Origin: Candidatus Woesearchaeota archaeon
GTDB lineage: Archaea > Nanobdellota > Nanobdellia > Woesearchaeales > GW2011-AR4
Direction: 5' to 3'
NCBI GenBank assembly: GCA_018303505.1
Contig: JAGVYA010000021.1
Span: 1-49,275 of the forward strand
DNA length: 49,275 nucleotides
In this document: positions 9,721 to 18,490 of the stretch, piece by piece
Layout: each line of letters opens with the position of its first letter
How positions within the stretch are numbered: position 1 is the stretch's first letter
The notes under the pieces: generated by a model
What the model was told of the DNA's origin: nothing
Seen by the model: the letters and a program-made list of their open reading frames with translations, nothing else
Databases searched by the model: none
Position numbers and translations under genes: made by a program

Positions 9721-10419
9721 TTAATCTACAAATCTGTATTTAATGAGGTAATATGCAGCTTTAATCCCATCCCTCCATGTTATTTTCTTGCCTTCCTTAA
9801 ACTTTCTTCCTACAAAACTGATAGACACTTCATGAATTTTGTAGCCTTTCTTAAGTATTTTTGCCGTAATTTCAGGCTCAAAATCAAAGCGGTTGGCTTT
9901 TAAATTTATATCCTTAATTACCTCTCTTCTAAATACCTTGTAACCAGTTTCCATATCAGTAATTTTTGCCCCATATAATAAATTTGTAATTAGTGTTAGA
10001 AATAAATTTCCAATGTAATGAAGTTTGTACATATTTTTTATATTCTTTCTTATGGCATCTAGTCTTGAACCATAAACTACCTTTGCTTTGTCTTCTATTA
10101 TTGGCTTTAGCAATTTTTCATATTCATCTGGATTGTATTCCAAGTCAGCGTCTTGTATTAGAATTATGTCTCCAGTGGAGCTTTTGAGTCCTGTTTTTAT
10201 TGCAGAGCCTTTACCCACATTTTTTTTGTGAAATAATATTTTTAATGAGATGTCATTAATGTTTTTCAATATATTCTTTGTATTGTCTTTAGAACAGTCA
10301 TCTACTACGACAATCTCCTTTGATATATTTTTTAATTTTACCTTTTTTACTTTGTCTATAACTTTCCTTATGGTCTTTTCTTCGTTATATACCGGGATTA
10401 TAACTGAGAGTTTTATCAT
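9721..10419 (-). CDS. GT2-family glycosyltransferase, polyprenyl-phosphate sugar synthase type
   Basis: This 232-residue protein has all the landmarks of the DPM1-like GT2 group. They are VIIPVYNEEKTI at the N-terminus, VVVDDCSKDNT, NVGKGSAIKTG, the metal-binding QDADLEYNP at about residue 90, and DMETGYKVFRREV. Members transfer a sugar from a nucleotide donor to dolichol phosphate on the cytoplasmic face. The GT-C-like proteins in this operon would be natural users of such lipid-linked donors. It starts 30 bases after the adenylyltransferase gene. Confidence 0.88.
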   Translation of the reverse strand: MIKLSVIIPVYNEEKTIRKVIDKVKKVKLKNISKEIVVVDDCSKDNTKNILKNINDISLKILFHKKNVGKGSAIKTGLKSSTGDIILIQDADLEYNPDEYEKLLKPIIEDKAKVVYGSRLDAIRKNIKNMYKLHYIGNLFLTLITNLLYGAKITDMETGYKVFRREVIKDINLKANRFDFEPEITAKILKKGYKIHEVSISFVGRKFKEGKKITWRDGIKAAYYLIKYRFVD

Positions 10420-10449
10420 GACACAAAAAAACTATAAATCTTTAAAAAA

Positions 10450-10938
10450 TTATTGGTTTTTGTGCAATCTGAGAATTCTGTTTATTAATTTGGTTGTCGA
10501 ATAACCTTTCTCCATTTTTGCAATTACAACTTTGCCGCCATTCTTTTCAACAACACCTTTTTCAATAATTTGGCTTAGCTTGTAGTCGCCAGCTTTTACA
10601 TGAACATGTGGCTTTATTTGTGAAATCCATTTTATAGGGTTTTTCTCATTAAACAAAAAAACATAGTCAATGCTTTTAAGTCCTGCCAAAACTGCTATAC
10701 GAGCTTTCTCATCATTGATTGGTCTTTTATCTCCTTTATTCTGCTTTACCGAAAAATCTGTATTAACTCCAACAATCAAAACATCTCCAAGCTTTTTTGA
10801 TTCTTCCAAATATTTGACATGCCCGAGATGAAGAATGTCAAAAATGCCGTTTGTTGTAACAATTTTTTTATTTTGTTTCTTTAGTTTTTGGACTATTGGG
10901 ATTAATTTTTTTAATGTTGTAATTTTGTTGTTTGACAT
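10450..10938 (-). CDS. rfaE2: heptose-1-phosphate adenylyltransferase (HldE C-terminal-domain type)
   Basis: This 162-residue cytidylyltransferase-fold protein has TNGIFDILHLGHVKYLEESK at about residues 29-48, including the HxGH nucleotide-binding motif, and RPINDEKARIAVLAGLKSIDYV further on. This matches the stand-alone nucleotidyltransferase half of bacterial HldE, which makes ADP-D-glycero-beta-D-manno-heptose from the 1-phosphate and ATP. The other steps, gmhA, the kinase and gmhB, lie in the same operon. It starts 12 bases after the gmhB stop. No HldD epimerase is seen, so the product may remain the D-glycero form. Confidence 0.88.
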   Translation of the reverse strand: MSNNKITTLKKLIPIVQKLKKQNKKIVTTNGIFDILHLGHVKYLEESKKLGDVLIVGVNTDFSVKQNKGDKRPINDEKARIAVLAGLKSIDYVFLFNEKNPIKWISQIKPHVHVKAGDYKLSQIIEKGVVEKNGGKVVIAKMEKGYSTTKLINRILRLHKNQ

Positions 10939-10950
10939 CTTAATTTTTAT

Positions 10951-11520
10951 TCACTTTTGATATTTGCTATCCTTCTTCAAAATCCATTTTGCAGCATCAA
11001 GCAAATTCTTTGCAAAATAATCCGGACTTACTTCATTTTTAGCATTAATGCCATAGCCAGTCAGCACGTGAATTGTCTTGCAGCCTACATTTTTCCCCAT
11101 TTCAAAATCGCTTTTTCTGTCGCCTATCACAAATGATTTTTTCAAGTCAATTCCAAACTCTTCTGCTGCTTCTTGAAGGAACTTTGTTTTTGGCTTGCGG
11201 CATTCGCAGTTGTCCTCTGGCTTATGAGGGCAGTAATATGTTTTTTGAATTTTTATATTCTGTTTTTTCAATTCTTTAATTAAATGGTTATTGAATTTAT
11301 TGAAATCTTCTAATGTGTAATATCCCCTTCCGATGCCTGATTGATTTGTGATAATAATTAGCTTAAAATCTTTTGATAATAATTTTAAACCTTCGACTGC
11401 ATTTGGTATTAATTTGAAATCTTCCAGCTTATGATGGTAGCCAACGTCTTCAACCAAAACGCCATCCCTATCGACTAAGATTGCTTTGTTTTTGTTTTCT
11501 CCAATTTTTGTGGTATTCAT
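10951..11520 (-). CDS. gmhB: D-glycero-beta-D-manno-heptose-1,7-bisphosphate 7-phosphatase
   Basis: This 189-residue HAD-family phosphatase has the catalytic DRDGVLVED at about residue 17, IITNQSGIGRG, a CPHKPEDNCECRKP zinc-loop region typical of GmhB, and GDRKSDFEMG. The family removes the 7-phosphate from heptose 1,7-bisphosphate. The present open frame begins with an ATG at 11520 that lies inside the 3' end of the homing-endonuclease gene, so its first 12 or so residues (NTTKIGENKNK) are read out of endonuclease DNA. The ancestral start is probably the ATG at 12521, which overlaps the kinase stop as ATGA and encodes MKKAILV. The same KAILV recurs just before DRDG. See the insertion feature. 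Confidence 0.88.
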   Translation of the reverse strand: MNTTKIGENKNKAILVDRDGVLVEDVGYHHKLEDFKLIPNAVEGLKLLSKDFKLIIITNQSGIGRGYYTLEDFNKFNNHLIKELKKQNIKIQKTYYCPHKPEDNCECRKPKTKFLQEAAEEFGIDLKKSFVIGDRKSDFEMGKNVGCKTIHVLTGYGINAKNEVSPDYFAKNLLDAAKWILKKDSKYQK

Positions 11521-12289
11521 TGTATCTCTTTCTATATTCTGGGTTTTGCATTCTTCTCTGATGATTTATTTGATGTTGCTTTTTTATAAGTTCATGTCTT
11601 ATAGGATTTGCCATATACTTATAGTATCTAATCTTATCTTTTTGCCTTCTTTTTAAATTTTCTTCATTTAATCTTTTATTGTTTTCTTCTGCAAACGGTC
11701 CTAACTTGTAATTCATGCATTTAGGAATGTAATCTTTTATCAAATTTAAGAATTTCTTAATTTGTTGAACACTAAAATACAAGTAATATCTCTTATAATC
11801 TCTGTTTATGGTGCAATTTATATCAAATTTTTCTTTCAAGAAATCCACTAAAATTTTGTTTTCTTCATATGACACATAAGTGGCAATTTTCGCATTTTGA
11901 TTTATATATCCAAAAGAACCATCATCACAATACCATATAGCCAATGCTAATGGTCCTACCTTCTGCAATGTTTCTTTTGCTATACATTTCTTATTATTTT
12001 TGTAAAATATTTTAAAATAACTGGTTAATACCGGGTGTGTTTTTGTCAATAATATTATATGGTAATAAACTTTGTTTGTGCGTGAATCAAAAACCTTAAA
12101 TTCTAAAGTTTTAGGTCTAAAACAATCTAAATATTTAGCTTTATATTCTAGATATTTTTTTTGTTTGAGTGAATGCTGTATCCTAAAATTTGCATTTATT
12201 GCTTTGCCTCTCAGTTGTAATCCACCATCCCCTAACAAACTTCCAATTAAAACTTGTTCTGCATCTAAATCTACTTTAGTGTATACCAT
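11468..12289 (-). CDS. LAGLIDADG homing endonuclease
   Basis: The start is placed at the ATG at 12289, preceded by GGAGG at good spacing; the frame stays open to 12418 but that part is a hairpin-rich leader. The 273-residue protein has two LAGLIDADG-type motifs, EQVLIGSLLGDGGL near the N-terminus and GPLALAIWYCDDGSF at about residue 110. Each brings the acidic residue that binds the catalytic metal. The last 75 residues are very rich in Lys, Arg and Tyr and probably bind DNA. Its stop codon falls inside the DRD codons of gmhB, and its 3' end supplies the present gmhB start. It would cut an empty gmhB allele and spread by repair. Confidence 0.85.
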   Translation of the reverse strand: MVYTKVDLDAEQVLIGSLLGDGGLQLRGKAINANFRIQHSLKQKKYLEYKAKYLDCFRPKTLEFKVFDSRTNKVYYHIILLTKTHPVLTSYFKIFYKNNKKCIAKETLQKVGPLALAIWYCDDGSFGYINQNAKIATYVSYEENKILVDFLKEKFDINCTINRDYKRYYLYFSVQQIKKFLNLIKDYIPKCMNYKLGPFAEENNKRLNEENLKRRQKDKIRYYKYMANPIRHELIKKQHQINHQRRMQNPEYRKRYNEYHKNWRKQKQSNLSR

Positions 12290-12500
12290 TTTAATAACCT
12301 CCGCAGTTTTTGAACTGCAAGAGTTTCCTAAAATTTTTGAGCCATATGTTTTTAGGCTTACCGTAGCCGACCTTTCTGAAGGAAAGGAAAAAACATAATG
12401 AGCGAAAAAATTACTCATTTAATCATCTCTCAAGAATTAGACCTTTAAATAGTTCACGCGAAAATGTCCAGTGCTTTTTTGTCCAGTGGTACGTAATTCC
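11473..12500 (-). mobile_element. homing-endonuclease element inserted near the start of gmhB
   Basis: The kinase stop overlaps an ATG at 12521 (ATGA) that opens MKKAILV and then runs into unrelated sequence. About 1,030 bases later the frame KAILV resumes and continues into DRDGVL of GmhB. The 14-base block GCAATTCTAGTTG and its relative GCAATCTTAGTCG flank the element and differ only at third codon positions. Between the 5' boundary and the endonuclease ATG lie several good hairpins, for example CCTTTC-CTTCA-GAAAGG, GGCT-ACGGTA-AGCC and GCAGTT-CAAA-AACTGC. This could be an intron or a free-standing endonuclease insertion. Exact borders are uncertain by about 15 bases. Confidence 0.7.
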
Positions 12501-12517
12501 AACTAGAATTGCCTTTT

Positions 12518-13369
12518 TCATAGGTTCTCAATTTCCCTTTTTATTTCGTCAATGCTTACAGAAGCAGTTCCTATTTTTCCAACTTTTATGCCTGCAGCAA
12601 TATTTGCTAATGTGGCAGCTTCTTCAAGATTTGCTCCTGATGCCATTGCAAGAGCAATTGTAGCAACAACTGTGTCGCCTGCCCCAATCAAGCTGTAAAC
12701 TTCTTTTGCATTTGCCGGGATGTGCTTTATGCTTCCATCCCTCTCAAACAAAGACATTCCTTTTTCTCCTCTTGTTATAAGCACATTTGTGTTGAGATAC
12801 TTCAACAGCTTATTGCCAATTTCTATTAAAGCATCATCACTTTCATCCTCGATATTAGTCATTTCACTTGCTTCTGCGTTATTTGGAGTTATCAAAGTTA
12901 CATTTGCATATAAGTCACGGTGCTTTGGCTTTGGGTCCACTATCACGATTTTGTTGTTTTCCCTTGATATTTGGATTAGCCTTTGGCTTATCTCAGGAGT
13001 TATAACCCCTTTTGCATAATCTGAAATTACAACAACATCAATATCTTTGATTGTTTTTTCCAGAAAAGTTATCATTGCGCTTTCTATATTTTTATGAACA
13101 TGCTCTTTTTTCTCATAATCAACCCTTAGCAATTGCTGGCTTCTTCCGACAATTCTCACTTTTTGCGTTGTTGGCTTGTCATTATCGGTGAAAATGCCGT
13201 TTGTGTTTATTCCTTTCCTTTTCAGCTCTTCAAGCAGAATATTCTTTGCTTCGTCATTTCCAGCTATTCCAACCATGAAAGCATTTCCATCAAGCGCAGC
13301 TACATTATTGGCCACATTTGAAGCTCCTCCCGGCTCATAGGTTTCTTTCAGCACATTTACAACCTGCAC
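12518..13369 (-). CDS. rfaE1: heptose-7-phosphate kinase, N-terminally truncated
   Basis: This ribokinase/PfkB-fold protein matches the kinase half of HldE. It has PGGASNVANNVAAL, RVDYEKKE, VVISDYAKGVITP, DPKPKHRD, LITPNNAEASEM, LITRGEKGMSLF and the catalytic GAGDTV near the C-terminus. The family phosphorylates D-glycero-D-manno-heptose 7-phosphate at C1. The homology extends upstream of the GTG at 13369 as RISPEAP, but a TAA stop sits directly before the R codon. The usual first 30 or so residues (GDxMLDxYxxG, which help bind the sugar) are absent from the AT-rich DNA upstream. The gene is therefore truncated or decaying, or starts at a non-standard codon. Position +2 before GAGD is also unusual (YSLIGAGD rather than YDVTGAGD). 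Confidence 0.8.
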   Translation of the reverse strand: MQVVNVLKETYEPGGASNVANNVAALDGNAFMVGIAGNDEAKNILLEELKRKGINTNGIFTDNDKPTTQKVRIVGRSQQLLRVDYEKKEHVHKNIESAMITFLEKTIKDIDVVVISDYAKGVITPEISQRLIQISRENNKIVIVDPKPKHRDLYANVTLITPNNAEASEMTNIEDESDDALIEIGNKLLKYLNTNVLITRGEKGMSLFERDGSIKHIPANAKEVYSLIGAGDTVVATIALAMASGANLEEAATLANIAAGIKVGKIGTASVSIDEIKREIENL

Positions 13370-13565
13370 AGGCGCCTCTGGGCTTATTCTTTAGTAGTCT
13401 TTGTTTCATTTTTTAATTTATTTTTTTCAATGTTTTATTTAATTGATAATTTTTAATTTTTTCAATTTTAATTATGTTTTATTAAATATAAACTTGATGT
13501 TTTTTGTAATTTTATTTTTTACTTTCTCAGCGCATTATTTATATTATCGTTTCAAAAAAATCTCA
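13370..13565. other. AT-rich spacer where the kinase N-terminus should be
   Basis: About 196 bases of extremely AT-rich sequence separate the deoxyhypusine-synthase-like gene from the kinase. No reading frame resembling a PfkB N-terminus is seen in any minus-strand frame. Only the codons for RISPEAP at 13370-13390 remain recognisable, directly after an in-frame stop. Confidence 0.6.
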
Positions 13566-14459
13566 TCAAATATTATCAACAATCTTTCTATGCAGTGTTG
13601 GTATTGTTTTTTCGTGCTTCTCTATTATTATAAATCCTTTTCCTCCTAATGATGTCGGCCTTTTCACAACATTTTCTCTTGGGCGATAATGGTCTATCAT
13701 GTCAAGGTTTGCTGCTGTTATGTTTTCAACTTTAAAGCCCAGATTTCTTGCTATTGTTAAAGCCTTCAAAAAAATTTCTGGAAGTATTACAGCACATCCT
13801 AGATTTAAGATAACACCATCTTCAAGCTTGCTCACGCTTTCTGCAAAAACCTTGAAGTCATGATAACTGGTTTTGCCAATTGCAGCTCCATCACAGCTTG
13901 GATGCTGATGTATTATATCGGTTCCGATTGCGACATGAACTGTTGCTGGCATGTTTAATTTGTAGGCATTCCATAAAATGCTGTATTCTTTGTTTGGCAA
14001 GTTTAAGTCATTAATTTTCTTTCCAATTGCAAAGCCCATTCCAAAGTTATTCTTTGCGCCTTCATTTATTGCCCCATTAAGAATGCCTCCAGTTTCCTCT
14101 ATCATTCCAAAAGTGCCGTCTTCGATTGTCTGCTCGACATATTCCGATGTTTCTCCGATAAGCGCAAGCTCAAAATCATGGATTGGGCCTGCGCCATTCA
14201 TTGCAATATGCTTTATTATGCCTTTTTTCATCAAGTCAATAATAAGCAAACTCATGCCAACCTTCATCACATGTGCGCCAATCATAAGAATTATTTGTTT
14301 ATTGTTTTTGTAAGAATTAATAATTTTGTTAACCAATTCATTGAAATCGTTTGAATTCATCATAATTTTAGAATTCTCAGGCATAATCAAATCATTCAAT
14401 CTTACTTTATTCTTTCTTTGCTTTATAGATATAGTTTTTATCTTATTAAAGTCCAACAT
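13566..14459 (-). CDS. deoxyhypusine-synthase-like protein of the heptose operon
   Basis: This 297-residue protein resembles the deoxyhypusine synthase fold. It has ILMIGAHVMKVGMSLLIIDL, HIAMNGAGPIHDFELA, EDGTFGMIEETGG and a C-terminal SLGGKGFIII, whose lysine is in the place of the active-site lysine of true synthases (WGK). It lacks the typical substrate tail of the eIF5A-modifying enzyme, and it sits between gmhA and the heptose kinase. That position suggests a sugar- or NAD-linked job rather than eIF5A modification. Whether it is a true deoxyhypusine synthase cannot be decided here. It follows the structured repeat at 14464-14744. Confidence 0.65.
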   Translation of the reverse strand: MLDFNKIKTISIKQRKNKVRLNDLIMPENSKIMMNSNDFNELVNKIINSYKNNKQIILMIGAHVMKVGMSLLIIDLMKKGIIKHIAMNGAGPIHDFELALIGETSEYVEQTIEDGTFGMIEETGGILNGAINEGAKNNFGMGFAIGKKINDLNLPNKEYSILWNAYKLNMPATVHVAIGTDIIHQHPSCDGAAIGKTSYHDFKVFAESVSKLEDGVILNLGCAVILPEIFLKALTIARNLGFKVENITAANLDMIDHYRPRENVVKRPTSLGGKGFIIIEKHEKTIPTLHRKIVDNI

Positions 14460-14463
14460 TTTA

Positions 14464-14744
14464 TTTAAACATCAAAATTCCACTTATGTATCATAAGTGG
14501 TTTACATATAACTAAACATTGCATGGAATTTGGATGTCAGGAAAATGCAATGCATTTTCAGGATCTCGAAAATCTATGATTTTCGCGATGCTCAAAAACC
14601 ACTCAAATAAGTGGAATTTTGTAGCCATGAAAATTCAAGGAATTTTCAGGGTTTCGAAAATCGTGGATTTTCGCAATGTCCAAAACCAATGAATGTGATA
14701 GTAATATAATCATGCCACCCATCTATGATGTGTGGTTTTTGACA
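14464..14744. repeat. dispersed multi-hairpin element, copy 1
   Basis: This 281-base element is nearly identical to 47718-48010. It contains six perfect or near-perfect 8-9 bp hairpins with three-base loops: CCACTTATG-TAT-CATAAGTGG, GAAAATGC-AAT-GCATTTTC, CGAAAATC-TAT-GATTTTCG, GAAAATTC-AAG-GAATTTTC, CGAAAATC-GTG-GATTTTCG, and a last CCAC...GTGG hairpin followed by T5. A competing 15-bp inverted repeat joins 14473-14487 to 14607-14621. It lies 21 bases after the gmhA stop, inside the minus-strand operon. The two hairpins at about 14541-14590 and 14629-14674 look like a duplicated module. Confidence 0.85.
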
Positions 14745-14765
14745 GATTAATAAAATTTTAACCAG

Positions 14766-15335
14766 CTAAGATATGCTCTTATCAACAAATTCGCAAATTA
14801 TGTGGAAAACCATAAGATGGTTTTCCTGTATTACTGGAGTATTATCTGAAGGAACTATAATCTCTATGTCAGAAGCATTCTTCATCTTGCCACCTCCTTT
14901 TCCAAGAAGACTTATAACATTCATCTTCAGTTTCTTTGCTTCATCAACAGCCCTTATGATGTTTTCTGAGTTGCCGCTTGTAGATATTGCAACAAAAACA
15001 TCATTTGGTTTCGCGAGAGCATGTAGTTGCCTTGCAAAAACTGTGTGGTACCCATAATCATTTGACCATGCAGTAAGCAACGAAGAGTCTACAGTCAATG
15101 CAATCGCAGGCAGAGCTTTTCTTTCCTTTTTGTATCTGCCTACAAATTCTGCCGCAAAATGGGAAGCCTGCGCTGCGCTTCCCCCATTTCCTGCAAGAAA
15201 AACCTGGTTTCCGGTCATGAAAGCTTTTAGTATTGCCTTCGCGGCACTTTCTATATCTGCAATTATTGACTCGTCAAGCATTGCCTTCTTTACTTGAAGG
15301 CTTTCAACAATCATAGTTTTTATGTCTTCTTTCAT
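14766..15335 (-). CDS. gmhA: sedoheptulose-7-phosphate isomerase
   Basis: This 189-residue SIS-domain protein has GNGGSAAQASHFAAEFVGRY at about residues 48-67, ALTVDSSLLTAWSNDYGY, VFVAISTSGNSENI and IQENHLMVFHIICEFVD near the C-terminus, the full GmhA pattern. The family converts sedoheptulose 7-phosphate to D-glycero-D-manno-heptose 7-phosphate, the first step to ADP-heptose. It is the first gene of the long minus-strand operon. An AGGTGA ribosome-binding site precedes the ATG. Its promoter region is shared with the divergent regulator-like gene at 15464, and a palindrome sits over the expected transcription start. Confidence 0.93.
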   Translation of the reverse strand: MKEDIKTMIVESLQVKKAMLDESIIADIESAAKAILKAFMTGNQVFLAGNGGSAAQASHFAAEFVGRYKKERKALPAIALTVDSSLLTAWSNDYGYHTVFARQLHALAKPNDVFVAISTSGNSENIIRAVDEAKKLKMNVISLLGKGGGKMKNASDIEIIVPSDNTPVIQENHLMVFHIICEFVDKSIS

Positions 15336-15346
15336 GCAATCACCTT

Positions 15347-15365
15347 AGTATGAATATTTCATACT
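15347..15365. promoter_or_regulatory. palindromic operator candidate at the gmhA transcription start
   Basis: AGTATGA-ATATT-TCATACT is a perfect 7-bp inverted repeat. A TATA-like ATATTTAAAT at about 15380-15389 (read on the minus strand) would place the gmhA transcription start close to or within this palindrome. That is a position where a ribbon-helix-helix dimer could block initiation. Confidence 0.6.
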
Positions 15366-15379
15366 TTAATTAAGCCTAC

Positions 15380-15389
15380 TATTTAAATA
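15380..15389 (-). promoter_or_regulatory. TATA box for the gmhA operon
   Basis: Read on the minus strand, an AT-rich ATATTTAAAT core lies about 45-50 bases upstream of the gmhA start codon. This leaves room for a short leader that contains the palindrome and the AGGTGA ribosome-binding site. Confidence 0.45.
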
Positions 15390-15401
15390 TTTTGTTTTTC
15401 C

Positions 15402-15455
15402 AAAGTATATATTCTACAATATAAAAATATATAAAGTAATACTTTTTACTACTTT
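15402..15455. promoter_or_regulatory. cluster of TACTTT/AAAGTA half-sites and TATA box of the RHH gene
   Basis: AAAGTA occurs at 15402 and 15433, and TACTTT at 15440 and 15450; a fifth half-site overlaps the palindrome at 15362. The sites at 15433-15445 form a perfect 13-base palindrome, AAAGTA-A-TACTTT. A TATA-like AAATATATAAAG lies at 15425-15436, so the sites flank or overlap the promoter of the gene starting at 15464. This fits autoregulation. Confidence 0.55.
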
Positions 15456-15463
15456 ATCATACC

Positions 15464-16213
15464 ATGACTAAGTCAAAGATTGCCATATCGCTAGATAGTT
15501 CTTTGCTCAAGCTAGTTGATTCTAAAGTAGACGGCTCTGTAATAAGAAGCAGGTCACAAGCAATAGAATACTTTTTAAAAAAAGGTATTCAGGAGCAGTC
15601 AGTCAATGTTGCGGTGTTATTGCTGAAAGGTGAGCACCAGGCTTTTGCATTAAAAGATATCAAAGGCACATCATTAATCAAACACCAAATTAATTTCTTT
15701 TCAAAATTTGGCATAAGCACAATATACATCATAACGCAGCATACTAAAAATATAAATATGCTTCTTGATGAAATTTCAGATTCAAAAATAAATGTTGAAA
15801 TTGTGGAAAAACAAGCAAAGGGAAATGCTGACGCACTCAAAGCTATTAAAGAAAAAGTAAATAACAACTTCATTGTAATGTCAGGCGACACTTATAACAA
15901 CTTTGACATGTTAAAAATGATAAAAAAACATACAGAATCTGAGAAGATTGCCACAATGGGGCTGATGACAAGGGAAAAAACAAGTAGTTACGGCACGGCA
16001 ATTCTTGATGGCGACTTAATTGTTGATTTTCAGGAAAAGCCAAAGCATTATTCCACCAATATAGTCAATGCAGGAATTTATATTTTTAATCCTGAAGTGT
16101 TTGAGATATTTGAAAATGCGGTTTCATTGGAAAAAGATTTGTTTCCAAAGCTGGCAAGAACAAAGCAGTTAGTCGGCTTTTTTACGTATGGAGAGTACAG
16201 GCACGTAGTTTAA
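15464..16213 (+). CDS. ribbon-helix-helix regulator fused to a degenerate sugar nucleotidyltransferase
   Basis: Residues 1-45 (KIAISLDSSLLKLVDSKV, then RSRSQAIEYFLKKGI) are a ribbon-helix-helix DNA-binding domain of the CopG/NikR N-terminal type. Residues 49-249 follow the NDP-sugar pyrophosphorylase fold, with LIKHQINFFSKFGISTIYII, FIVMSGDTYNNFD (the LxGD metal site), DFQEKPK and NAGIYIFNPEVF. The nucleotide-binding loop, normally GGxGTRLxPLT, reads LLKGEHQAFALKD, and the protein ends at GEYRHVV, about where GYWxDIGT normally occurs. Catalysis is therefore doubtful, and the domain may sense a sugar phosphate or nucleotide sugar. It is divergent from gmhA and overlaps the end of the convergent heptosyltransferase gene by 4 bases. 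Confidence 0.82.
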   Translation: MTKSKIAISLDSSLLKLVDSKVDGSVIRSRSQAIEYFLKKGIQEQSVNVAVLLLKGEHQAFALKDIKGTSLIKHQINFFSKFGISTIYIITQHTKNINMLLDEISDSKINVEIVEKQAKGNADALKAIKEKVNNNFIVMSGDTYNNFDMLKMIKKHTESEKIATMGLMTREKTSSYGTAILDGDLIVDFQEKPKHYSTNIVNAGIYIFNPEVFEIFENAVSLEKDLFPKLARTKQLVGFFTYGEYRHVV

Positions 16214-17346
16214 ATTAATTTCTCAACTTCTTTCAGTGCATCATTCACGCTTATATTTTTCATGCATTTCTGATAATCATTGCTGTCTTTTGGGTACAAG
16301 CAGTCTGGAACTTGCCCTTTGTGGACATTAATGCAGGGACTAAACTCGCAATTATTGCCTTTGTATAAACCAATATTTCCTTCTCCATAAGGTCCAAACC
16401 TTATGGGAAGATTTGGTCCAAATAAGCCAAGTGTCTTTACACCTTGAGCAGCTGCAATATGCATCGGCCCAGCGTCATTGCCAATAAAAAGATTAGATTT
16501 GCCAATCAAATAAAATAATTGTTTTAAAGTTATTTTTCCAGCTGCGTTTATTGTTTTGTTTTTGCTTTCCATGATTTTTTGTATATCTTCAATCAATTTA
16601 ATCTCATCCGAAACACCAACAAAAATCACCTTTGCATTGTGCCTTGCTATTATTTCGTCGCAAAGCTCAGCATATCTATCAAATAGCCACATCCTCGCTT
16701 TTGCTGATTCTGCAGCGCCTGTAGCAACGCAAACAATAAAATCATTGCTTTTTATTTCATTATTTTTTAGAAATTTATCAACAATATTTTGGTCATTTTT
16801 TGAGAAATTCAATTTTGGTAAATTATTTATGGTATAATTAATATCTAAAACTCTTGCCAAATCCAAGAAAGTTTGAACAGCATGCTGTTTGTCGTTGTAT
16901 TTTACTTTATTTGTGTATAATCCTGCTCTTGCATTATGGGAATAGCCAACAATTCTTTTGCCGACAAAAAAAGAAATGATAGATGATATGTTTAGATATT
17001 CTTCCATGTCTATAACCAAATCATATTTTTGAGTGTTTTTTATGATAAAATTTAGAATTGAAAATGGATTTAAATTCAACTTAACTGTTTTATTTATATT
17101 TTTATTATTGTAATAAACATCCTCATTTCTTGATGTAACTAAGACATTAATCTCTGCTTTAGGAAATCTTTTTCTTAGCGCTTCAATTGCAGGCAATGTC
17201 AAGATTGTTTCGCCAATGCCCCACAATTGAACTACTAATATTTTTTTAATTTCTATGCTGTCATGAGTTTTCCTATTAAATAAGCCTAGGAAATTACAAA
17301 TAGTATTTCCAACATATCTGTCAAAAAATTTTATTATCGGTATCAT
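16210..17346 (-). CDS. GT9-family heptosyltransferase
   Basis: About 378 residues from the ATG at 17346; a TTG four codons earlier is less likely. It shows the ADP-heptose glycosyltransferase pattern: KKILVVQLWGIGETILTLPA at the start of the Rossmann core, VGYSHNARAG, the donor-domain VCVATGAAESAKARMWLFDRY, and FIGNDAGPMHIAAAQGVKTL followed by GLFGP near residue 290. GT9 enzymes add heptose to surface glycans. Its presence with gmhA, gmhB and the kinase and adenylyltransferase halves suggests that the archaeal glycan contains heptose. Four cysteines near the C-terminus (CEFSPC and later) are also common in the family. Confidence 0.88.
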   Translation of the reverse strand: MIPIIKFFDRYVGNTICNFLGLFNRKTHDSIEIKKILVVQLWGIGETILTLPAIEALRKRFPKAEINVLVTSRNEDVYYNNKNINKTVKLNLNPFSILNFIIKNTQKYDLVIDMEEYLNISSIISFFVGKRIVGYSHNARAGLYTNKVKYNDKQHAVQTFLDLARVLDINYTINNLPKLNFSKNDQNIVDKFLKNNEIKSNDFIVCVATGAAESAKARMWLFDRYAELCDEIIARHNAKVIFVGVSDEIKLIEDIQKIMESKNKTINAAGKITLKQLFYLIGKSNLFIGNDAGPMHIAAAQGVKTLGLFGPNLPIRFGPYGEGNIGLYKGNNCEFSPCINVHKGQVPDCLYPKDSNDYQKCMKNISVNDALKEVEKLI

Positions 17347-17383
17347 GCATAGAAGCAAAATTATGCCTTATTTAAATCTATAT

Positions 17384-17473
17384 ATAGACAATTGCGTTGA
17401 TTATTGGATTTGTACGCAATTGTCTATCTCGTAAATTGCGGCTATTTATTATACTAATCACCGCAATTTACGA
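17384..17473. repeat. two back-to-back perfect hairpins between DUF2304 and heptosyltransferase genes
   Basis: The first hairpin pairs ATAGACAATTGCGT (17384-17397) with ACGCAATTGTCTAT (17414-17427), 14 bp with a 16-base loop. The second pairs TCGTAAATTGCGG (17429-17441) with CCGCAATTTACGA (17461-17473), 13 bp. Both stems share AATTGCG. They fill the gap between two co-directional genes and could process, attenuate or separate the transcript. Confidence 0.75.
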
Positions 17474-17484
17474 TATAAGAAATC

Positions 17485-17820
17485 TTATTTCTTTTTGCTT
17501 TTACTCGTAGCAATTGCCCTAACAATAGTTTCAAGCTGTTTTTGGTTTTTTCGCGCAATCGTGTAGGTATAGAAAATAGATGCTATTAAAAAAAGAAATC
17601 CACTTATAATCAGCAAATCAAGAGCCCTCAAGAATCCGCCTACCTTAACTATTGGATCAAGTATATTTGGAAACAACGAAATTAAAATAAAAACTCCCCA
17701 GACTAAAAACCAAAAAGTCAATTCTTTTGTTGAGAACTCTTTTCTTTTGTAATTTAGGAAAGAATAATACAGCATAAACAATCCAAACAAAAAGCCCGCT
17801 ATCTGTATTCCTAGCGCCAT
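17485..17820 (-). CDS. DUF2304 small membrane protein
   Basis: This 111-residue protein has three hydrophobic segments and a charged C-terminal helix ending SKSKKK. The WFLVWGVFILISLFPNI segment followed by a second span and TYTIARKNQKQLETIVRAIA is the DUF2304 pattern. Members are regularly found beside dolichol-phosphate-sugar synthases, as here, where the GT2 gene stops one base before it. A role as membrane partner or lipid-carrier helper of that GT2 is inferred from this conserved neighbourhood; no activity is known. Confidence 0.75.
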   Translation of the reverse strand: MALGIQIAGFLFGLFMLYYSFLNYKRKEFSTKELTFWFLVWGVFILISLFPNILDPIVKVGGFLRALDLLIISGFLFLIASIFYTYTIARKNQKQLETIVRAIATSKSKKK

Positions 17821-17821
17821 T

Positions 17822-18490
17822 TTACCTGCTGTTAAATAATTTCCACCAAAACATGTTCAAGACTATTTTTATTCCATCAATAATTGTCGTGCCTTTGTAC
17901 TTATCAGAGTATACTGTTTGTATCGGAATCTGCACATATTTTAATCTTTGCTTTCCAGCCCTTGATATCATTTCAGACTCCATTGAATAATCAGAGGCGT
18001 TCCATCTAATTTTTTTATAAGCCTCTCTTGAAAAAGCACGGAAGCCGCATTGTGTGTCATTTAAACTTATTCCATACAAAATGTTTACAACATTCGATAT
18101 AAACATGTTTCCAAATCTGAAGACAATAGGCATTTTGTTGCTCGCTTTTCTGTAGCTAAAAACAATATCGTACTTTTTTAATTTTTCTAAAAACCTCGGG
18201 ATGTCATCGGGATCATGCTGGGCATCAGCGTCCAATGCAATAATAAATTTTGCACCTTTTTTAACTGCTAAATCACAACCTGTTTTAAGCGCAGCACCTT
18301 TGCCAAGATTCACTATATGCCTAAGAACAATTGCGCCTGCTTTTTCTGCTGAAACTTTTGTTTTGTCTTTGCTGCCGTCGTCAACAACTGCCACATTGTT
18401 CACATATTTTTTTGTTTTTTTGACTATGCTGATTATATTACCTTCCTCATTATAAGCTGGAATTACAGCCCAAATATTGTTTATTTCCAT
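17822..18490 (-). CDS. GT2-family dolichol-phosphate sugar synthase-like
   Basis: This 222-residue GT-A enzyme has AVIPAYNEEGNI, VAVVDDGSKDKT, NLGKGAALKTGCDLA, the DADAQHDPDD metal site at about residue 87 and NDTQCGFRAFSREA. There are no clear membrane segments. The family makes polyprenyl-phosphate-linked sugars, the donors used outside by GT-C enzymes, or starts the lipid-linked N-glycan (AglJ-type). It lies directly between aglB and DUF2304, with its start adjacent to the AglB stop. Confidence 0.88.
   Translation of the reverse strand: MEINNIWAVIPAYNEEGNIISIVKKTKKYVNNVAVVDDGSKDKTKVSAEKAGAIVLRHIVNLGKGAALKTGCDLAVKKGAKFIIALDADAQHDPDDIPRFLEKLKKYDIVFSYRKASNKMPIVFRFGNMFISNVVNILYGISLNDTQCGFRAFSREAYKKIRWNASDYSMESEMISRAGKQRLKYVQIPIQTVYSDKYKGTTIIDGIKIVLNMFWWKLFNSR

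Follow-up and report, generated by a model that had tools for sequence, protein, structure and literature searches.

An RHH–sugar nucleotidyltransferase fusion as predicted regulator of a divergent heptose operon in a Woesearchaeota archaeon

Regulators derived from enzymes are a known kind. PutA, in which a ribbon-helix-helix (RHH) domain is fused to a proline-catabolic enzyme, regulates the genes of its own pathway, and NrtR is a Nudix-derived regulator of NAD genes, i.e. an enzyme fold that has turned regulator beside the genes of its own pathway. No regulator built from a sugar nucleotidyltransferase (NTase) is known to us, and none was described in the open-access literature searched, the coverage of which was incomplete. 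The operator of NikR has the sequence GTATGA-N16-TCATAC (PMC7055735). TrmBL1/Tgr of the Thermococcales, a sugar-sensing archaeal regulator, recognizes a 17-bp palindrome with an N5 spacer; bound downstream of the TATA box it blocks polymerase recruitment, and bound upstream it activates (PMC4706686). GMPPA is a paralogue of GDP-mannose pyrophosphorylase B that lacks catalysis; it regulates the synthesis of the nucleotide-sugar, which it binds (PMC11228364).

The window, i.e. the whole stretch of 49,275 nucleotides analysed here, derives from a 1.3-Mb draft genome of a Candidatus Woesearchaeota archaeon. It contains an ORF of 249 aa, starting at an ATG, that encodes an RHH domain (aa 1-48) followed by a sugar NTase domain (aa 48-249). 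Rfam and tRNA scans of the whole window gave no match. The features of the ORF are as follows.

15464..16213, plus strand: RHH-NTase fusion of clade A, predicted regulator of the heptose operon (ORF, Pfam/NCBIfam, AF2, tree)
15464..15607, plus strand: N-terminal ribbon-helix-helix DNA-binding domain, aa 1-48 (RHH_1, NikR profile, AF2 helices)
15626..15646, plus strand: KGEHQAF (aa 55-61), what is left of the pyrophosphate-binding loop GGxGTRL..PK (alignments)
15881..15889, plus strand: SGD (aa 140-142), with the phosphate/metal Asp142 kept (43/43 clade-A members)
16034..16087, plus strand: EKP...NAGIYIF (aa 191-208; EKP at 191-193, NAGIYIF at 202-208), with the sugar-side Glu191, Lys192 and Asn202 kept (each 43/43 in clade A)

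With PutA the protein shares the union of an RHH domain and a metabolic enzyme; the two enzymes are unrelated, a Pfam scan found neither the proline dehydrogenase nor the P5C dehydrogenase domain of PutA in the regulator, and its enzyme part appears to be a pseudoenzyme (clades A and C, see below). NrtR differs in being bacterial and in combining a Nudix fold with a winged helix. TrmBL1 has unrelated DNA-binding and sensor domains and a global regulon, in contrast to about one site per genome here; no TrmB winged-helix domain was detected in the regulator by Pfam scan, an RHH domain being found instead. GMPPA is likewise a pseudo-nucleotidyltransferase of the same fold, but it acts on the enzyme by protein contact and has no DNA-binding domain.

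The sequence-only reading had placed an RHH domain ahead of an NTase domain, and this order was confirmed by RHH_1, a NikR profile match and PF00483. PF00483 (NTP_transferase) matched aa 68-217 with an E-value of 1.2e-24 (87.7 bits; cut-off 21.2). RHH_1 matched aa 8-35 with E 0.007 when the whole protein was searched, and with E 5e-4 and 20.3 bits, just under the gathering value of 20.5, when the 48-aa domain was searched alone; 29 of 39 family members matched RHH_1 (best E 2e-6). The best match of a family RHH profile in the PDB was E. coli NikR (1q5v, E 4.3e-5). NikR models covered only aa 4-48, the remainder matching NTP_transferase. The AF2/AlphaFold model (pLDDT 87.9) agreed with the proposed domain pair, giving the RHH helices and an NTase fold which superposes on the GDP-mannose pyrophosphorylase VTC1 (7x8k_A; Z 26.4, rmsd 1.7, 199 residues). 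The inferred RHH elements are a strand KIAISL and helices at 12-21 and 30-44; in the AF2 models both helices are placed as expected of an RHH domain, and the strand was not assigned in the monomer model. The RHH domain superposed on ParD (7ycw, Z 5.9) and on the RHH domain of PutA (2jxg, Z 4.7). A Foldseek search with the RHH domain alone gave no significant match, which is uninformative for an obligate dimer of 48 aa. Judged by sequence match, the domain belongs to the ribbon-helix-helix superfamily, with RHH_1 marginally below gathering.

NikR, a nickel-responsive repressor and the nearest RHH protein in the PDB by sequence profile, likewise has an N-terminal RHH domain and a ligand-binding domain; its C-terminal nickel-binding domain is absent from the regulator, which has the NTase fold instead. 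The half-site GTATGA is the same in both, with a spacing of N16 in NikR and of N5 and N15 here. Strand positions 5/7/9 are fixed by clade (K-A-S in A, R-T/S-T in B, K-S-T in C), and the NikR residues aligned with them are R-T-T, identical in most of clade B. These residues (R3/T5/T7, aligned with K5/A7/S9 of clade A) presumably make the base contacts of NikR.

Alignment with fused relatives that have an intact site (GGRGTRLRPLTDKTPK) showed that the regulator has KGEHQAF at this position, about nine residues being deleted, and that it terminates at GEYRHVV where the relatives have GQWFDIGN and about 30 further residues. Both the degenerate GGxGTRL loop and the shortened end had been noticed from the sequence alone, as had the retained sugar-binding side (SGD, EKP, NAGIYIF), whose contact residues proved to be kept in 43/43 clade-A members. 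The ligand contacts of product-bound VTC1, taken from PMC9168903, were mapped onto the 43 clade-A proteins. The pyrophosphate loop (VTC1 Gly9, Thr12, Arg13) is replaced by KGEHQ-type residues and partly deleted, by about nine residues, in all 43, and the equivalents of VTC1 Trp217/Asp219 are Tyr/His in 42, so that the second metal-binding Asp (WxDxG) is gone. Retained in all 43 are G120 (VTC1 Gly85, base), D142 (Asp111), G177 (Gly146, sugar), E191 (Glu162), N202 (Asn173, sugar), E223 (Glu195) and the EKP lysine K192; E115 (base; equivalent to VTC1 position 80) is kept in 42. Because the loop and the second metal Asp are lost and the contacts are kept, the alignment makes catalysis by the clade-A domain very unlikely and indicates that its product pocket is under selection. 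A whole nucleotide-sugar would be a likelier ligand than a bare heptose phosphate, since base-side positions are retained besides the sugar-side ones; ligand binding is inferred only from residues kept in a homologous pocket, and the base contacts do not identify the base. The conserved GEHQ and H247 could also point to new chemistry instead of loss.

The regulator lies divergently to a heptose operon that runs from 15335 downwards on the minus strand, as had been read from the sequence. The genes of this operon are as follows.

14766..15335, minus strand: gmhA, sedoheptulose-7-phosphate isomerase, first gene of the target operon (TIGR00441, E 8.6e-61)
13566..14459, minus strand: GSU2086-family protein, target operon (NF052581, E 4e-122)
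12518..13369, minus strand: hldE kinase domain, apparently with a damaged 5' end in the assembly (TIGR02198, E 1.8e-93, profile 36-314)
10951..11520, minus strand: gmhB, heptose bisphosphate phosphatase
10450..10938, minus strand: hldE adenylyltransferase domain (TIGR02199, 192 bits, cut-off 181.5)

Since the operon encodes a nucleotidyltransferase of its own, the hldE adenylyltransferase, a catalytic role of the fusion would be redundant. This adenylyltransferase was not found within the examined stretch of every clade-A operon. Most genomes of the family contain a full-length orthologue of 61-85% identity, and more distant orthologues are found across the order; because these share the RHH domain, the lost loop and the shortened end, the fusion with its degenerate loop is, by sequence comparison, more than a chance occurrence. 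The hldE kinase was found at most five genes away in 30 of 32 informative clade-A loci, where the divergent first gene is usually gmhA, a cupin gene or hldD. A conserved link to a divergent heptose operon, on which the regulator hypothesis had been made to depend, was therefore upheld.

Several minor observations were made at these loci. The first operon genes vary within clade A (L014, L023, L060, L066, L068, L129, L132): some genomes have gmhA and the GSU2086-family gene, others a small cupin, an ADP-heptose 6-epimerase-like gene or both, and the operator described below stays constant. The hldE kinase (12518-13620, minus strand) lacks its first approximately 35 residues; its start MKQRLLK and the remainder lie in different frames, the stretch between them is missing, and the N-terminus is intact in relatives. 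The gene may truly be decaying, or the assembly may be at fault. Between the hldE kinase and gmhB lies a free-standing LAGLIDADG_2 homing-endonuclease ORF (11468-12418, minus strand) that overlaps the start of gmhB; Rfam detected no intron at this ORF, and locus L015 likewise has an extra coding sequence at this position. The region 9721-18490 carries a full ADP-heptose pathway and a heptosyltransferase-like GT9 gene in an archaeon, adjoining an AglB-like gene; heptose and Woesearchaeota are seldom named together in the open-access literature searched.

The intergenic region between gmhA and the regulator contains the following predicted elements.

15348..15364, no strand: predicted operator O1, GTATGA-ATATT-TCATAC, between the TATA box and the gmhA start codon
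15380..15387, minus strand: TATA box TTTAAATA of the divergent heptose operon
15428..15435, plus strand: TATA box TATATAAA of the regulator gene
15436..15462, no strand: predicted operator O2, GTAATA-N15-TCATAC, directly after the regulator TATA box

O1 is a perfect 17-bp inverted repeat, GTATGA-N5-TCATAC. It was found exactly in 30 and with at most one mismatch in 37 of the 43 clade-A upstream regions; the corresponding values in shuffled sequences were 0-0.1, with no exact match. The half-sites are constant across orthologues and the five spacer bases vary; among the half-site spacings compared in these upstream regions, none approached N5 except N15. O2, which has the latter spacing, shows two mismatches in the window and ends 1 nt ahead of the regulator ATG. 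Among the 43 orthologues, GTATGA-N15-TCATAC was exact in 8 and present with at most two mismatches in 23, and in most of them it follows directly on the TATA box and stops 1-3 nt short of the ATG. The distances between O1 and O2 cluster at 69-71, 79-82 and 91-94 (p 0.0002 on distinct values), which is suggestive of cooperation on the same face of the DNA; this phasing was not counted as evidence because orthologues share these lengths.

The orthologues are related, and the counts are therefore not independent; insertion, relocation and absence provide tests for which counts are not needed. In L065 and L055 inserted DNA parts the regulator from the operon, and the perfect site remains beside the latter; no O1 site was found in three clade-A loci without an adjoining heptose operon (L062, L136, L047). 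L133, a clade-A locus that does have a heptose operon, also had no O1 site at up to one mismatch. In the source genome O1 is the only site with at most one mismatch, so that no second O1 site of a wider clade-A regulon was detected there. In a scan of 35 relatives, 19 of 23 exact A sites fell at the clade-A locus; the stray sites of L191, L199 and L208 adjoined none of the compared genes and were at chance level. In the phylum of a Micrarchaeota genome, two clade-A-like genes lie beside heptosyltransferase-like or hldD-like genes; ahead of one of the two (L259), the 17-mer of the window, GTATGAATATTTCATAC, recurs unchanged, with a TATA-like sequence on one side and the ATG on the other. The expectation that the protein binds the intergenic region thus found comparative support in a conserved, genome-unique inverted repeat and a second site at the regulator promoter; DNA binding is strongly supported by this comparison and remains an inference, binding data being absent for either operator. 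As a separate observation, an exact GTATGA-N5-TCATAC precedes a fructose-bisphosphatase (FBPase) gene in L189 (G041:C29), with a clade-B regulator on another contig of the same genome; this palindrome is possibly a clade-B site in inverted form.

We interpret the fusion as an autorepressing, nucleotide-sugar-responsive transcriptional repressor of heptose synthesis, made from a sugar-1-phosphate nucleotidyltransferase, and assign this reading a probability of about 0.75. RHH domains would pair and read TCATAC/GTATGA half-sites, which are one helical turn apart in O1 (N5) and two in O2 (N15); each operator lies between a TATA box and the corresponding start, O1 at the heptose operon and O2 at the regulator gene. 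The bound regulator would block recruitment of RNA polymerase at both promoters, and would therefore repress ADP-heptose synthesis as well as its own gene. Repression of both is likely because O1 and O2 lie downstream of the TATA boxes, as does TrmBL1 when repressing. The NTase domain, without catalysis and with its product pocket kept, should bind a nucleotide-sugar, most likely ADP-heptose; because this pocket is retained, the end product is inferred to act as co-repressor in a feedback loop. The sign of the response is inferred as well, and the opposite response is possible; the oligomeric state of the protein is likewise only inferred.

The same DNA-binding regulator could instead respond to an inducer that releases a default repressor, or to an early intermediate (heptose-1-phosphate or heptose-7-phosphate) rather than the end product. 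This remains a tentative possibility: the sugar-side contacts are kept in all members, and loss of the pyrophosphate loop would suit a ligand that lacks a long phosphate tail, but the base-side E115 and G120, taken as invariant in clade A (E115 with the single exception given above), would be needless for a bare sugar phosphate. This objection is itself weak, both residues being near-invariant across the whole RHH-NTase family. It is unlikely that the degenerate domain serves only as a dimerization scaffold of a constitutive, ligand-free autorepressor. RHH proteins do require an oligomerizing partner, and NTase domains of the VTC1/PF00483-type fold commonly form dimers or tetramers, but a pure scaffold would hardly retain sugar- and base-contact residues at 42-43/43.

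Even less support was found for activation through the two sites. The clade-B operator lies upstream of the BRE/TATA elements of both divergent genes, the activating position of TrmBL1 (PMC4706686), whereas both clade-A sites lie between TATA box and start codon, i.e. in the repressing position. Scarcely credible, finally, is an active nucleotidyltransferase with an unusual active site that uses its RHH domain for autoregulation only (a trigger enzyme). Clade B keeps the full signature, and the conserved His58, Gln59 and His247 might stand in for the lost residues of clade A; yet the PPi loop is deleted in 43/43, the second metal Asp is His in 42, and the operon's own adenylyltransferase passes its family cut-off. 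Apart from these readings, a toxin-antitoxin pair of RHH antitoxin and NTase toxin was rejected: PF00483 marks the NTase as the sugar type rather than the minimal polymerase-beta type, and the adjoining operon is biosynthetic.

A survey of similar fusions beside sugar loci, which had been proposed as a check, revealed a large DPANN family of three clades, each with its own sugar operon. Altogether 132 distinct full-length RHH-NTases were found in the sampled loci. In the phylum of the window, 175 of 279 sampled genomes matched the family profile strongly, most of those listed spanning the RHH domain, and in the phylum of the Micrarchaeota genome 47 of 76 genomes matched, some by the NTase part only. 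In the tree, clade A had an SH-aLRT of 99 and included one unclassified member; a few such members also fell in each of B and C, and A and C tended to group (90). The active site of clade B is mostly intact, with the loop Gly and the PK lysine in 48/48 and the last Asp in 38/48, so the family ancestor was probably active. In clade C the active site is lost, as are sugar contacts (Glu to Gln and Asn to Phe, each in 28/29). Clade-B genes adjoin a phosphohexomutase in 23/35 loci and a divergent class II fructose-bisphosphatase in 7, some also aldolase and GAPDH; clade-C genes adjoin UDP-glucose dehydrogenase in 22/28 (divergent in 18), together with an NTase and an NAD-dependent epimerase/dehydratase.

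The predicted operators differ likewise. Clade B shows a tandem TCATAC-N4-TCATAC (period 10; at most one mismatch in 27/47) and clade C an ATCTTAC-N4-ATCCTAC (period 11; ATCCTAC in 23/29). All 21 exact B sites among relatives fell at a clade-B regulator locus, 20 of them also by the FBPase gene. The two promoters stand back to back with the B site between them, upstream of each, so that clade B may activate; it may be an enzyme as well. All 20 C sites examined precede UDP-glucose dehydrogenase. Four loci (L233, L236, L240, L247) had a C site but no clade-C gene in the examined stretch, and in three of these four genomes (G052, G010, G016) clade-C genes were found on other contigs. Because C sites precede UDP-glucose dehydrogenase with the regulator elsewhere, the operator goes with the target, as a trans-acting regulator requires.

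The proposal of a regulator made from a metabolic enzyme was supported in general and had to be narrowed to one branch of three, one of which has an intact site. From these comparisons it seems probable, with some reserve, that the DPANN regulators arose from one ancestral RHH-NTase fusion, the apparently still active branch being bifunctional and coupling nucleotide-sugar synthesis to gluconeogenesis genes, and the branches without catalysis being sensors for heptose and UDP-glucuronate-type pathways with operator codes of their own. The family appears to display, among living relatives, the stages by which an enzyme became a sensor, with intact, eroded and re-specialized members and matching operators. 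For the poorly understood DPANN archaea it offers a defined, testable regulatory circuit whose operators and targets are sequence-based predictions, and it hints at how the synthesis of cell-surface sugars may be controlled.

Further variants were observed within the family. Two clade-B members (L138, L139) have lost the pyrophosphate loop independently (GATQEHLAL and GTTQDHLRA), a separate loss of catalysis, and adjoin an hldE-adenylyltransferase-like gene and a phosphohexomutase. A stand-alone NTase inside the fused B clade (L099) points to an apparent loss of the RHH domain, and in L168 a B-type and a C-type RHH-NTase lie close together.
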